Below are positions 3 through 6,095 of a stretch of 47,835 bases of DNA, piece by piece. Source of the stretch: Rubrobacter sp. (GTDB lineage Bacteria; Chloroflexota; Chloroflexia; Thermobaculales; Thermobaculaceae); the NCBI GenBank assembly GCA_016781735.1, contig JADDPT010000133.1, positions 1-47,835 of the forward strand. The letters are read 5' to 3'. The position numbers and the translations under genes are program-made. The notes beneath the pieces are model-generated. The model had not been told where the DNA came from and searched no databases. It was given only the letters and a program-made list of their open reading frames with translations. Each line of letters begins with the position of its first letter. The stretch's first letter is position 1.

Positions 3-2474
3 TTCTGGAGCGTCGACGTTGCGGGCAACATTGAGGAGAAGACCGCTCCGGGCCACTCGATCACTCTGAAGATCGATGGCACCGCGCCGACCACAACGAT
101 CTCCCTGCCCCAAGCGTTCGACTCCGGTTGGTTCGCCGATGTCGTGACGGTGGCCTTCGCCGCCGAGGATCTCGAGTCCGGCGTGGCCAGGACGTACTAC
201 AGCGTTGACGGCGATGAGAGCCAGCGCTACGACGGGACGTTCGCGCATACGCTCAACGGCACGCACACAATCACCTTCTGGAGCGAGGACGTCGCGGGTA
301 ACGTCGAGGACAAGACGAAGGAAGCCAACAACGTTGAGATCAAGGTAGATGTCGCTCCACCGACTATCACTGGCAGCCGTAGTCCAGCCGCGAACGCGCA
401 CGGTTGGAACAACGAGACCGTCACCGTCTCCTTCGAGTGCGAGGACGCCGAGTCCGGCGTCGAGGTGGAGAACTGTACCCCGACGACCCCTGTTGAGAAC
501 GAGCGCGCTGGCCAGGCGGTGAGCGGCACCGCCGTGGACAACGTCGGCAAGACCGCCAGCACGACGGTCGAGAACATCAACATCGACAAGACGAAGCCGA
601 GCCTCTCGGGGGCTGCCACCACGCCCGCCAACGCTGTAGGCTGGTACAACAGTGATGTGACGATCAAGTGGACCGGGCAGGACGGGCTGTCGGGCATCGA
701 CCTGGCGACTCAGCCCGACAGCAGCACGATCACGGGCGAGGGCCGCAACCTGGGTGCTGGTCCTGTATCCATCAAGGACAAGGCGGGCAACAGCGAGAGC
801 GCCTCGGTGAGCGGCATCAACATCGACCGCACGGCGCCTTCGATCCAGGGAGCGACTACAACCGCCCCGAACGCAGCCGGTTGGTACACGGGCGCCGTTA
901 CGGTGGGCTTCAAGTGCATCGATCCCGCGCTTGCCGACGGCAGCGACGGCTCCGGCGTGGCTTCCTGCCCGAGTGATAAGGTGGTGAGCGGCAACGGCGC
1001 TGACCAGAGCGTGACCAGCGGTAACGCGACGGACAACGCCGGTAACAGCACCTCCACAGGCAAGACGGTCGGCGGGATCTACATCGACGGCGCGGCGCCT
1101 CAGACGACGGCGGACACCCAGTGCACGAAGGTCAACGAATACTGCACGGGCGACACCGCGACGGTGGTCCTCACGGCTGCGGACCAGGAAGGCCTGTCAG
1201 GAGTCAAGGAGATCCACTACAGCGTCAACAAAGAACTGGAGAAAGTGGCGTCCGGCGCGACGGTGAGCCTGAGCGTCCCACTGAACGGCGCAGGCGAGGC
1301 GACCGTAAGCTTCTACGCCGTGGACAAGGCGGACAACAAGGAGCCAGCTGGTGAGGTAAACCTCCAGTACGACAACATCGCACCGAAGGTCACCCACACC
1401 ACGTCGCCGGCCGCGAACGCTGACGGGTGGAACAACGAGAACGTTACGGTACACTTCGACGCCACCGACACGGGCTCGGGCGTGGACGAGACCAGGACAA
1501 CCGCGGATTCAGTAGTGGACACCGAGACGCCGTTCGCCGGGGTCGAGGTCTTCGGCGAGGCGTACGACATCGCGGGCAACAAGGGAACCGATAAGGTGAC
1601 TGTCAAGCTCGACAGGACCGCTCCTCAGATCACTGCCAGCGCCAAGACGGCCGATGGCAAGGAGTACACACAGGGCACGTGGACGAGGCAGGCGGTGACG
1701 GTGAGCTTCAATTGCTCCGACGCGCTATCGGGGATCGCGGTCTGCCCCGACCCGGTAACGGTGACAGCGAACGGCGCTGGTGCCGACGGCACGGGCCAAT
1801 CCGTCACACGCGAGGTCTCCGACAAGGCCAGCAACAAGGCCAGCGCGACGTTCGGCGGTATCAAGATCGACAACGAGAATCCGGTGATCACTGTGGAGGG
1901 CGTCAAGGATGGCGGCATCCACACCTTGGGCGCGGTACCCTCGGCCTCCTGCACGGCGAAGGATGATCTCTCCGGCGTCAATGCGGATGGCTGCAAGGTG
2001 GCTGTGACGGGCGGCACGGCGAACGGCGTGGGCACCTTCACCTACACGGCGACGGCTACGGATAACGCGGGCAACACCGCAACCGTGACCGGCAGCTACA
2101 AAGTGACCTACAAGTGGGACGGGTTCCTGCAGCCGATCAACGACACGGCGCACCAGGTGGGCACGAGCACGAGCATCTTCAAGGCGGGCAGCACTATCCC
2201 CGCGAAGTTCCAGCTCAAGCGCGCGGACGGCACGGTCATCCAGGCCAACAAGGCACCCGAGTGGCTCACGCCTGCCAAGGGCAGCGCTACCAGCGCCTCC
2301 GTTGACGAGACGGCGTACAGCGACCCGGCGACCAGTGGTAGCACCTACACCTGGAACGGCAGCCAGTACCAGTACAACTGGAGCACGAAGGGCGTCACAG
2401 CAGGCTTCTACTACCGCATAGGAGTCCAGCTGGACGACGGTCAGATCTACTACGTCAACATTGGCCTGCGGTAG
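3..2474 (+). CDS. Large Ig/OmpL47-like repeat surface protein with C-terminal PxKF domain (5' end outside window)
   Basis: The reading frame is open from base 3, so the gene begins upstream and 823 residues are visible; the internal GTG at 144 is not its start. The protein is a chain of about 85-105-residue beta-rich repeats. Each has a proline-rich entry (TAPSIQG, APPTITG), an N-A-x-GW(Y/N) motif, a central SGV/SGI and a closing D-x-A-G-N. This is the pattern of OmpL47/Ig-like extracellular repeats. Pairs of cysteines recur inside several repeats and could form disulfides. The last 130 residues hold a GFLQPIND segment and IPAKFQLKRADG, the signature of the PxKF domain found at the ends of secreted proteins, finishing in a YYVNIGLR strand. 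No membrane anchor is visible at the C-terminus. It is probably a secreted or surface adhesin-like protein; the ligand is unknown. A strong hairpin follows the stop. Confidence 0.82.
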   Translation, partial: FWSVDVAGNIEEKTAPGHSITLKIDGTAPTTTISLPQAFDSGWFADVVTVAFAAEDLESGVARTYYSVDGDESQRYDGTFAHTLNGTHTITFWSEDVAGNVEDKTKEANNVEIKVDVAPPTITGSRSPAANAHGWNNETVTVSFECEDAESGVEVENCTPTTPVENERAGQAVSGTAVDNVGKTASTTVENINIDKTKPSLSGAATTPANAVGWYNSDVTIKWTGQDGLSGIDLATQPDSSTITGEGRNLGAGPVSIKDKAGNSESASVSGINIDRTAPSIQGATTTAPNAAGWYTGAVTVGFKCIDPALADGSDGSGVASCPSDKVVSGNGADQSVTSGNATDNAGNSTSTGKTVGGIYIDGAAPQTTADTQCTKVNEYCTGDTATVVLTAADQEGLSGVKEIHYSVNKELEKVASGATVSLSVPLNGAGEATVSFYAVDKADNKEPAGEVNLQYDNIAPKVTHTTSPAANADGWNNENVTVHFDATDTGSGVDETRTTADSVVDTETPFAGVEVFGEAYDIAGNKGTDKVTVKLDRTAPQITASAKTADGKEYTQGTWTRQAVTVSFNCSDALSGIAVCPDPVTVTANGAGADGTGQSVTREVSDKASNKASATFGGIKIDNENPVITVEGVKDGGIHTLGAVPSASCTAKDDLSGVNADGCKVAVTGGTANGVGTFTYTATATDNAGNTATVTGSYKVTYKWDGFLQPINDTAHQVGTSTSIFKAGSTIPAKFQLKRADGTVIQANKAPEWLTPAKGSATSASVDETAYSDPATSGSTYTWNGSQYQYNWSTKGVTAGFYYRIGVQLDDGQIYYVNIGLR

Positions 2475-2511: not shown

Positions 2512-2609
2512 CATCCCGGAAACGCGAGGGTTGCCCGGCTCATAGCCTGGACAGCCCTCATCCCTTGTCTCAAGTTCGACGGATTGTATAACGAGAGGAG
2601 ACGGCCCGA

Positions 2610-3952
2610 ATGTCGGAAAGGCTGGTAGTCAGAGGCACTTGGCAGGGACGACGCGCGGCACGCGTAGCGAGCGTGATGATGAGCCTGCTCCTGGCGCTTA
2701 TCACGGCTCAACCGACGCTGGCGTCCTACCAAGGCGACACGTTTCAGCAGGAGGCCGAGCGGAGATACCGCCTGGAACCAGGCGTCTTCGTCTACGGCAC
2801 CGGCTTCGTCGCCCCCCTCGCAGAGCTGTTTGGCGAGATCTATGTTGGGGACGACGTGTTCGTGGCGGCTAACTCGATACTACGTGCCGCTCCACCCGCC
2901 AGATCGTGGTCGGCACCGGGAGCAGCGTCCAGGACAACGTCATTATACGCGCCCTGGAGGACAGTATTGAGATCGGGGAGAACGCCACGATCACTCACCA
3001 CGCCATCGTCCGTAACTCCCAGATCGGCTCCCGAGCCTACATAGGCTATCGCGCGACTATAACGGACGCTCGCATCGGCGATGGAGCCGTGATCTGGCAC
3101 GGCGCCAAGGTGGAGGGAGTGAACATTCCCAGCAACGCCTTTGTTGGTGCTGGAAGGGTTATCACCTCCCAGTCACAGGCCGATGCCCTTCCCAAGGTGC
3201 CGGCTGAAGACAAGGAGTACACAAACCGCCGGCTACAGAGCAACCAGGCGTTTGCCCGTGGCTACATCAACCTGTACCAGACGGAAGGGTACGAGGCTGT
3301 TATCGAGCTGTCGCGAAACCCCAGGACCTCTATACTGCCCCAGACGACCGAGCCGAGTATCGCCCCCGACGTGGAGCTGCAGGAATTCGTGCGGATCGTC
3401 GGCGACGTCCGTGTGGGCCGCAACTCGTCGATCGGCCAGCGGACAACCATCCGTGCCGACGAGGGCTCGCCGATCATCATAGGCGCCGGCGCGAATATAG
3501 ACGACCGCGTCACCTTCCACGGTTTGGAGGACACGGACGTGCGCATCGGTGACAACCTGACTGTGGACGACGACGCCGTGATCCACGGCCCCCTGTCTGT
3601 CGGGAACAACGTCACGGTGGGCGAAGGGACAGTCGTGTTCAATGCAACGGTGGGGGACAACGTCGAGATTGGCAACCACGTCATCGTTTCTACCCCTCCT
3701 GGGGAAGACGAGAGGATAGTGATCCCTGCCAACTCAGTGGTTCCCGATGGGGCCATCATCTCGGGTCCGGACGACCTGAAGAAGCTCGGACAGCGCGGTA
3801 GTGACGATGAAGATGACGTCCCTGGCCAGCTCCCCGATACAGGCTATGGTGGGGGTGCCATTGGTCACGCAGCCGCGTTTGGCGCCGCCGGAGCTATGCC
3901 TACGGGGCTTGAGCGCGCAACGGGAATTGCGCATCAACCGAGTCACCGCTAG
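2610..3952 (+). pseudogene. Secreted tandem Cam-type gamma-carbonic anhydrase-like protein, single-base frameshift near 2889
   Basis: The first 93 codons run in one frame: a signal peptide (residues 1-38, cut after TLA) and the start of a left-handed beta-helix. The family continues in another frame from 2891. Adding one A after 2889 turns GCC-GCT-CCA into GCC-GAC-TCC and restores the conserved RAD turn, as in TTIRADEGSP of the second repeat. The repaired protein has 447 residues. Repeat 1 is followed by a Cam-like linker (ITSQSQADALP, then YINLYQTEGYEA), and repeat 2 starts near NPRTSILP. Neither repeat keeps all three zinc histidines. By alignment with Cam, repeat 1 has Arg/His/Arg (IIRALED; ITHHAIVRN) and repeat 2 has His/Asp/His (TFHGLED; VDDDAVIHG), so catalysis is doubtful. 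The C-terminus has a DE-rich spacer, LPDTG, and a Gly/Ala stretch too weak for a typical anchor. The break may be a real mutation or an assembly error. Confidence 0.8.
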
Positions 3953-4051: not shown

Positions 4052-4426
4052 GTGAGTACGGCCAGAAGGTTGCTCATACTGATCAGGGGGCAGGCGCAAG
4101 TGGAGTACGCGCTTCTCCTCACTCTTATAGCCGTCGTGGCGTCTCTTGCGCTGCTTGGGCTCGGCGGGCAAATCCCAGGGGTGTTCGCCCAGGTCGACTC
4201 TGCCCTAGGAGGCCAGCAGTGCAAGGGCCAGAACTGTGGCGGTAAGCCCGGCAATCCTGATCCTGGACCCCCGGATGCTCCCAAACCGGGCAACCCCAAT
4301 CCCGGGCAGCCGAAGCCGAAGGGACTTGACCCTGGCCACCTACTCCAGGCCGGCGTCGCCAGCAATCAGAGCGCCCATGATCATCACGTCGGGTCCCACG
4401 CGCTGAAGCTTTCCGGAAGCGTCTAA
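4052..4426 (+). CDS. Flp/Fap-type IVb pilin-like protein with Pro/Gly-rich tail
   Basis: A 124-residue protein with a GTG start. A short basic leader (STARRLLILIRGQ) is followed by AQVEYALLLTLIAVVASL, a class III prepilin pattern: Gly at the likely cleavage point, Glu at position +5 and a Tyr beside it, then a single hydrophobic helix (residues 17-41). This is the hallmark of Flp pilins built by Tad systems. After the helix there are two cysteines (QQCKGQNCGG) and a run of P-G-N-P repeats to about residue 95, then a His-rich end. No prepilin peptidase or Tad ATPase gene lies nearby, so the assembly genes must be elsewhere. It follows two other surface-protein genes on the same strand. Confidence 0.72.
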   Translation: MSTARRLLILIRGQAQVEYALLLTLIAVVASLALLGLGGQIPGVFAQVDSALGGQQCKGQNCGGKPGNPDPGPPDAPKPGNPNPGQPKPKGLDPGHLLQAGVASNQSAHDHHVGSHALKLSGSV

Positions 4427-4478: not shown

Positions 4479-6095
4479 CTATTCCGCCGGTATCTCGTCG
4501 TATACCATGCCCAGGTCCATCCCCTGCGCCCTGCGAAGGAGCCTGGAGCCAAGATACACCGCTGTCGCCACACCGTAGAGAACCGCCATGTAGATGAGTG
4601 ATTCCCGGTTGTTGACACCATAAGTGTCCCGTGCGATCCACTGGTACAGGCAGAAGACGAGGAACGCTCCGAACATTACCGCCGACAACGTGATCAGCGG
4701 TATACCAAGAACGTTGTACCTGGCAATGGGCGACGCGTTGTAGATCTCGGGCCTGCGCCACGGCAACACCGCAGCGGCGACCGTCGAACCGAGGAACGTT
4801 ATAGCAATGACGAGCGTGGCATCCAGCACCCACGTGGCGAAGTTCGGGCTGAACGCGTACATCCAGCTAATAGGTATGGAGGGGATGAGCATCAGCAGCA
4901 GCGCGGCGTAGGGAACGCCGGTCGAGGTCGTCTTCGAGGCCCACTCAGGGAGCACCCTGTCGAACGCTGTTGCGAACACTACGCGAGTGGACGACAGGAA
5001 GACGGTTCCCACCCACCCGAAGAACCACAGCGACAACAGGGTTATCAGGATGAACTGCAGCACCGGGTTCCCTAGTAAGAATGACGCGAGCAGGCCCGGA
5101 TACGGCCAGACAGGAAACGGGTTGTTCTCCGCGCCCGACCAGTATGCGTTATTGGCTGCGTAGTAGAAGTCCCAGCCGAAGGTCTTGGAGAAGAGCCAGA
5201 GCATCACTGCTGCGACTGCCGTGGTCGCCAGCAGGGCCCCGCCCATCGCGTAAATGTTTTTCCGGAAATCCGAGGCGCCCCTGACCTCGCCGTACAGAGT
5301 CGCGCCCCAGTTCGACCAGAGGTTGAAGAATACGATCATTGGAATCAGCAGCAGCGTCGGGTAGAACGTGAACTGCCCTGGAGCGGCTGCCTGAACGCGG
5401 CCGGCCTCCAGCGTCTGCTGATACGCATTGCCCTGCGCACCGAAGAGACTGCTCGACTGTGCATTGAAGGCCGACGTGAAATCGGCCCTGGAGTTGACTG
5501 CGAGCAGGACCAGCATGACCGCAAGGCCCAGCAAACCGCCGTAAAAACACAGCTTCTGAACTCGTGCGTAGGTGCGCATGCCGAGGGCGATGAAGAGCGA
5601 GGCGAGCACCGCCACGACCATCGAGGAGGTGAACACTCCGGTGGGAGTGCCGAAGAAAGCGGCGACGGAATCCAGGTTGGCTATGGTAGCCAGGGGAGTG
5701 AACACCTCGATGTTGAGGATGTTCGCGTAGATCGGCACCCAGTGCCAGAGGATGAACCACCAGCCTGTTATCGCCAGTACGAAGCCCAGCCCGCCCCCGA
5801 GGACGCGGCTGATCCACACGTAATCACCGCCGGCCCGTGGCATCACCGCAATCAGAGATGCGTAGGTTACTGCCTGGAAGATGAGATAGAGACCCGAGAG
5901 TATTGTCGCCCATACGAGCGAACCGTCCGGTATGAAGGGCGCGAAGGAGAAGATGAAGAGTCCGAGCGTGATCAGATTGATCGAGAAGGTCGCGTAGATG
6001 AAAGCATCCCAAACCGACCACCCACGTAGGAGGCCCGTTGCGTTGCGTTTGAACAGGTCGTCGCCCGCAGGCATAGTTCTTCTGCTGGTTCTCAT
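4479..6095 (-). CDS. APC-superfamily amino acid permease
   Basis: A 538-residue membrane protein with about 12 hydrophobic segments, the normal size for the amino acid-polyamine-organocation family. The first helix follows LLRGWSVWDAF. The next region has MPRAGGDYVWISR, the typical APC consensus between helices 2 and 3 that lines the substrate site. The substrate cannot be read from the sequence. The short C-terminal tail (RRAQGMDLGMVYDEIPAE) would be cytoplasmic. It is the last gene of a minus-strand operon, 15 bases after the metallophosphoesterase gene. An AAGGAG lies about 12 bases before the ATG, slightly far for a ribosome site. Confidence 0.85.
   Translation of the reverse strand: MRTSRRTMPAGDDLFKRNATGLLRGWSVWDAFIYATFSINLITLGLFIFSFAPFIPDGSLVWATILSGLYLIFQAVTYASLIAVMPRAGGDYVWISRVLGGGLGFVLAITGWWFILWHWVPIYANILNIEVFTPLATIANLDSVAAFFGTPTGVFTSSMVVAVLASLFIALGMRTYARVQKLCFYGGLLGLAVMLVLLAVNSRADFTSAFNAQSSSLFGAQGNAYQQTLEAGRVQAAAPGQFTFYPTLLLIPMIVFFNLWSNWGATLYGEVRGASDFRKNIYAMGGALLATTAVAAVMLWLFSKTFGWDFYYAANNAYWSGAENNPFPVWPYPGLLASFLLGNPVLQFILITLLSLWFFGWVGTVFLSSTRVVFATAFDRVLPEWASKTTSTGVPYAALLLMLIPSIPISWMYAFSPNFATWVLDATLVIAITFLGSTVAAAVLPWRRPEIYNASPIARYNVLGIPLITLSAVMFGAFLVFCLYQWIARDTYGVNNRESLIYMAVLYGVATAVYLGSRLLRRAQGMDLGMVYDEIPAE

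Follow-up and report, generated by a model that had tools for sequence, protein, structure and literature searches.

The gene at positions 2610–3952 of the window (the whole stretch of DNA analysed, 47,835 nucleotides) is best regarded as a representative, disrupted by a frameshift, of a γ-carbonic anhydrase (γ-CA) family with two repeats and half-sites partitioned between them. This family of exported two-repeat γ-CA-like proteins is little noticed. We consider it probable that its members are exported two-domain γ-CAs whose repeats 2 and 1 supply opposite halves of one putative zinc site; most likely, a single composite zinc site lies at the repeat 2/repeat 1 interface, and its activity is predicted as probable. 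Active sites of γ-CAs normally lie between identical subunits, and this would, if true, be to our knowledge the first known γ-CA in which a single polypeptide joins two non-equivalent halves to build the active site.

The original prediction described positions 2610–3952 as encoding a single secreted chain; these positions are not one open frame, the gene being split by a one-base shift between 2888 and 2900, so that it encodes, or once encoded, the protein discussed here. In frame A (2610–3044), the signal peptide is followed by the initial coils up to approximately 2888, ending in ...NSILRA (2888), and frame B (from approximately 2900 to 3952) continues with ...IVVGTGSSVQDN and covers the remaining repeat 1, the helix, repeat 2, and the tail. 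Relatives are intact across the corresponding point, and the frameshift is either an assembly error or a mutation. The features of the gene, with residues in Cam numbering, are as follows.

2596–2600, plus strand: Shine–Dalgarno-like AGGAG, 9 bases before the ATG at 2610 (sequence)
2610–2726, plus strand: Sec-type signal peptide with a basic n-region, a hydrophobic core, and ...TLAS (sequence, hydropathy)
2727–2888, plus strand: first coils of repeat 1 (YGTGFVAPLAELFGEIYVGDDVFVAANSILRA) in the first frame, matching the same stretch in the Rubrobacter homologues
2888–2900, plus strand: one-base frameshift (sequence; homologues intact at the same place)
2900–3190, plus strand: remainder of repeat 1, β-helix (alignment; fold from models)
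Repeat 1 codon starts, plus strand: Ser73 at 2924, Gln75 at 2930, Asp76 at 2933, Arg81 at 2948, His117 at 2996, Arg122 at 3011 (alignment)
3203–3286, plus strand: long helix after repeat 1, bearing the Asn202 equivalent at 3242 (alignment, model)
3350–3790, plus strand: repeat 2, β-helix (alignment)
Repeat 2 codon starts, plus strand: Arg59 at 3452, Asp61 at 3458, Glu62 at 3461, His81 at 3518, Asp117 at 3569, His122 at 3584 (alignment)
3791–3952, plus strand: acidic linker, LPDTG (3830–3844), and low-confidence tail, with the stop codon at 3950–3952 (sequence, hydropathy, model)

HMM and PDB searches placed both repeats among γ-CA/CcmM and hexapeptide proteins, confirming the two Cam-like units proposed originally, and the Pfam matches of the protein are of the hexapeptide type only. 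In the AlphaFold2 model of the Rubrobacter marinus member (mean pLDDT 77.5, pTM 0.83), pLDDT exceeds 90 for the greater part of repeat 1 and is about 52–59 for most of the repeat 2 core. Structural comparison of repeat 1 with CcmM gave Z 25.3 (rmsd 1.7 over 155 aligned residues), and with Cam, Z 23.6 (rmsd 1.4 over 165 residues); for the window protein, the mean pLDDT is 61.1 and pTM 0.64, with about 50 in repeat 2 and a disordered tail. The left-handed β-helix γ-CA fold is assigned to repeat 1 from the model match and to repeat 2 from sequence alone.

The metal of Cam is bound by His81 and His122 from one monomer and His117 from the neighbouring one, Asn73, Gln75, and Asn202 form a water network, and Glu62 aids proton transfer (PMC4519908). 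An Arg–Asp ion pair crosses the γ-CA interface, being numbered Arg45/Asp61 in the respective study (PMC8000050); by our own mapping from the residue spacing, this pair would correspond to Arg59/Asp76 of Cam. By coil arithmetic, Asp76 and His117 likely lie on one side of the β-helix, each being five residues before a zinc-binding histidine (His81 and His122, respectively).

In the two-repeat family, each repeat holds all the residues assigned to one of the two sides of this interface. Of the zinc ligands, His117 alone is kept in repeat 1, whereas repeat 2 has just His81 and His122, in 24 out of 24 aligned members, Deinococcus deserti included; none of the 24 has a histidine at a reverse position, and no member has all three zinc histidines in a single domain, the set being complete only across both repeats. 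The window protein has Arg–His–Arg in repeat 1 and His–Asp–His in repeat 2 at Cam positions 81/117/122, as had been read previously and in agreement with the family alignment, and keeps every composite-site position, save for Ser replacing Asn73. Beyond the ligands, repeat 1 retains Asn73 and Gln75 in 23 members each, Asp76 in all 24, and Asn202, assigned to this side without independent derivation and located in a helix present only after repeat 1, in 23; repeat 2 retains Arg59 and Asp61 in all 24 members and Glu62 in 22, with Asp in the other two. Taking repeat 2 as the His81/His122 side (side A) and repeat 1 as the His117 side (side B), 235 out of 240 alignment cells are identical to Cam (118 out of 120 for side A, 117 out of 120 for side B), compared with 51 out of 213 for the reverse pairing (30 out of 117 and 21 out of 96, respectively). 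As a control, single-domain Cam relatives hold both sides in one chain at the positions covered by the sequence excerpts.

The ligand rule was derived from the first five sequences and then held in relatives found later, including the D. deserti plasmid protein; the search patterns for relatives excluded the ligand positions. The same half-site split was seen by eye in two distant two-repeat γ-CA proteins with twin-Arg-like signals from Chloroflexota genomes G388 and G292: L045 (1456–2739, minus strand) has NIQD, Ile81, His117, and Lys122 in repeat 1 and RADE, His81, Asn117, and His122 in repeat 2, and L047 (1192–2559, plus strand) has Tyr, His, Lys in repeat 1 and His, Glu, His in repeat 2, so that position 117 of repeat 2 is Asn or Glu in these proteins.

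Since His81 and His122, on the one hand, and His117, on the other hand, come from neighbouring subunits in Cam, the family likely carries a composite site at the interface of repeats 2 and 1. The idea of a shared site, raised in the original prediction, is strongly supported by the alignment, as the surviving residues are complementary in 24 out of 24 members, include more than the zinc ligands, and correspond to sides A and B of the known interface. The alignment predicts that three histidines meet at one interface, an arrangement listed in the original prediction as a refuting outcome.

This pattern was probably produced by duplication of a Cam/CcmM-type β-helix domain followed by reciprocal loss, so that repeat 2 retains the interface side with Arg59, Asp61, Glu62, His81, and His122, and repeat 1 retains the opposite side, with Asn73, Gln75, Asp76, His117, and, in the helix following it, Asn202. 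If the repeats are packed like neighbouring Cam subunits, they would form one three-histidine zinc site with the water network, Glu62, and the cross-subunit Arg59–Asp76 ion pair, and the protein would catalyze CO2 hydration outside the cytoplasm. The members are probably single-chain, exported, obligately asymmetric bacterial γ-CAs that arose by tandem duplication and reciprocal decay, with repeats 2 and 1 of one chain, or of two partner chains, completing one zinc site. Points against this reading are the low model confidence of repeat 2, the loss of Glu84 and the acidic loop of Cam, the frameshift in the window copy, and the fact that two domain types cannot alternate around a ring of three.

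Alternatively, the two repeats might form separate homotypic rings, in which repeat 2 binds metal via His–His–Asp and repeat 1 serves as a scaffold. Position 117 of repeat 2 is indeed acidic in 23 out of 24 members (Asp in 21, Glu in two, and Asn in one), and metal sites formed by two histidines and one carboxylate are common. However, such rings would leave unexplained why repeat 1, having lost positions 81, 122, and 62, keeps 117 out of 120 residues at His117, Asn73, Gln75, Asp76, and Asn202; besides, the Asn73/Gln75 water network is gone from repeat 2, and one member has Asn at position 117, and hence we regard this arrangement as unlikely.

It is similarly improbable that the family comprises catalytically dead structural or binding proteins, as proposed for several γ-CA-like proteins and, in the original prediction, for the window protein. 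Neither repeat alone has a full zinc site; Glu84 of Cam is missing (position 84 of repeat 2 is mostly Lys in the family alignment), as is the Cam acidic loop, absent from both repeats except for a non-acidic repeat 1 insert in cyanobacteria and L067. CamH also lacks Glu84 and the acidic loop, and some CamH members are inactive. Moreover, γ-CA-like scaffolds without measured activity exist, e.g., in plant complex I (PMC7447434). On the other hand, the full composite set of ligands and catalytic-network residues is kept across Chloroflexota, Actinomycetota, Deinococcota, and Cyanobacteriota, and neutral or purely structural drift is not expected to preserve it, which argues against a dead protein. 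The wording “rather than an enzyme” is thus unsupported, as the set of metal-binding and catalytic-network residues is full when both repeats are counted.

The insert at the place of the Cam acidic loop in repeat 1 of L055–L062, L064, L065, L067, L071, and L074 (cyanobacteria and L067) has a conserved cysteine (..PxxxC..), and most of these members have a second cysteine (RxCIG-type) in repeat 1, a possible disulphide. Repeat 1 also has an extra invariant histidine outside the Cam zinc ligands (residue 116 of L066, ‘VLHG’/‘MHN’; WHG of GAVIWHGAK in the window protein).

The original prediction of a secreted protein with a sortase-like LPDTG holds in part: a Sec-type signal peptide (hydropathy 1.9) and the motif itself are present, but the sorting tail is unconvincing, with the maximal 17-residue hydropathy of 0.98 after LPDTG and no Lys/Arg cluster. 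No LPXTG motif was found in the aligned homologues. The genome of the window encodes a sortase, and surface anchoring by sortase is a weak prediction for the window protein. The relatives appear to be exported via Tat, via Sec, or as lipoproteins, without LPXTG: judging by their N-termini, the Thermomicrobiales proteins have twin-Arg signals, the cyanobacterial ones, Sec-type signals, and the Rubrobacter ones, a lipoprotein-like start.

A single-sequence scan of genome contigs with the window protein alone yielded no match. A search of 84,980 species genomes with an alignment of five members identified two-repeat relatives in Thermomicrobiales, Rubrobacter, another actinomycetote, and filamentous or terrestrial cyanobacteria (Scytonema, Brasilonema, Myxacorys, Iningainema, and others), and a plasmid search added D. 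deserti WP_012694801.1, annotated as “carbonate dehydratase.” A quick tree combining the family repeats with Cam and CcmM single domains recovered one clade per repeat (support 98 and 100), which places the duplication before the spread of the family; repeat 2 of the window protein groups with Rubrobacter (95), the window rows being long-branched.

The window copy may be a horizontally acquired gene now decaying as a pseudogene, with the composite site holding for the relatives only; we see this as a real possibility, falling somewhat short of even chances. Along with the frameshift and the weak C-terminal anchor, it is suggested by the Rubrobacter affinity of repeat 2 and by the lack of a two-repeat match in the other genomes sampled from its family. 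At the same time, the composite-site positions are kept with the one exception noted above, no second disruption is seen within the gene, and indel errors can occur in draft assemblies of metagenomes.

The far end of the contig matches a same-family genome at 76% identity, and thus the contig probably belongs to the source genome. An amino-acid permease gene adjoining the γ-CA gene (window 4479–6095, minus strand) has no match in six sampled same-family genomes, although the far end matches them at up to 76%; the region at the left end was possibly acquired. Just downstream (4052–4426, plus strand) is a short ORF resembling a Flp-type pilin (GQAQVEYALLLTLIAVVASLALLGLG), with no Pfam match at 1e-4, and upstream (144–2474, plus strand) is a gene for a 776-aa repetitive protein with Ig-like ‘DKAGN...IDxTxP’ repeats, nearly without Pfam matches. 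Comparison of gene neighbourhoods, with Pfam applied to a few neighbours, revealed no shared neighbours beyond close kin, and hence no operon context; CemA-family genes near two cyanobacterial copies are not general and were dropped.

The decay of the two halves in opposite directions constitutes a natural complementation experiment that assigns residues to the two sides of the site, and the fused version, a predicted single-site enzyme, could be used to test the evolution of interface catalysis. If zinc ligands were examined in each domain separately, such proteins would be classed as inactive, though the full set exists across the chain. The presence of members in Rubrobacter, desert Deinococcus, and terrestrial cyanobacteria hints at a role in extracellular CO2/bicarbonate exchange.

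No description of a two-domain γ-CA and no paper on the D. deserti protein were found in the open literature. The D. deserti protein is a two-repeat member with ligands Leu–His–Lys and His–Asp–His; unlike the window gene, its gene is intact and plasmid-borne, the two proteins being approximately 42% identical. Cam from Methanosarcina thermophila (PDB:1THJ, 1QRG) shares with the family the β-helix, the same catalytic positions, and the zinc site at a two-domain interface. However, Cam chains have one domain each and assemble into a homotrimer whose three sites are identical, whereas the family members are predicted to have two fused domains with a half-site each and lack the acidic loop with Glu84 present in Cam. 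The N-terminal γ-CA domain of CcmM (PDB:3KWC, 7D6C) is the closest fold match for repeat 1, but the two-repeat proteins have a second γ-CA unit instead of RuBisCO small-subunit-like domains and, given their signal peptides, are not carboxysomal. β-Helix heterotrimers with unequal subunits have been reported for CcmM/CcmN (PMC13249358); in the two-repeat family, both halves are in one chain. In the γ-CA heterotrimer of plant complex I (CA1/CA2/CAL2), the subunits are degenerate, and one of three interfaces has all three histidines and Zn (PMC7447434); there, three subunits encoded by separate genes form a part of complex I, whereas the family considered here is bacterial, fused, and exported. 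Thus, rings of unequal γ-CA subunits exist (PMC7447434; PMC13249358), and the plant complex I heterotrimer and CcmM/CcmN are the nearest precedents for the architecture of the two-repeat family.
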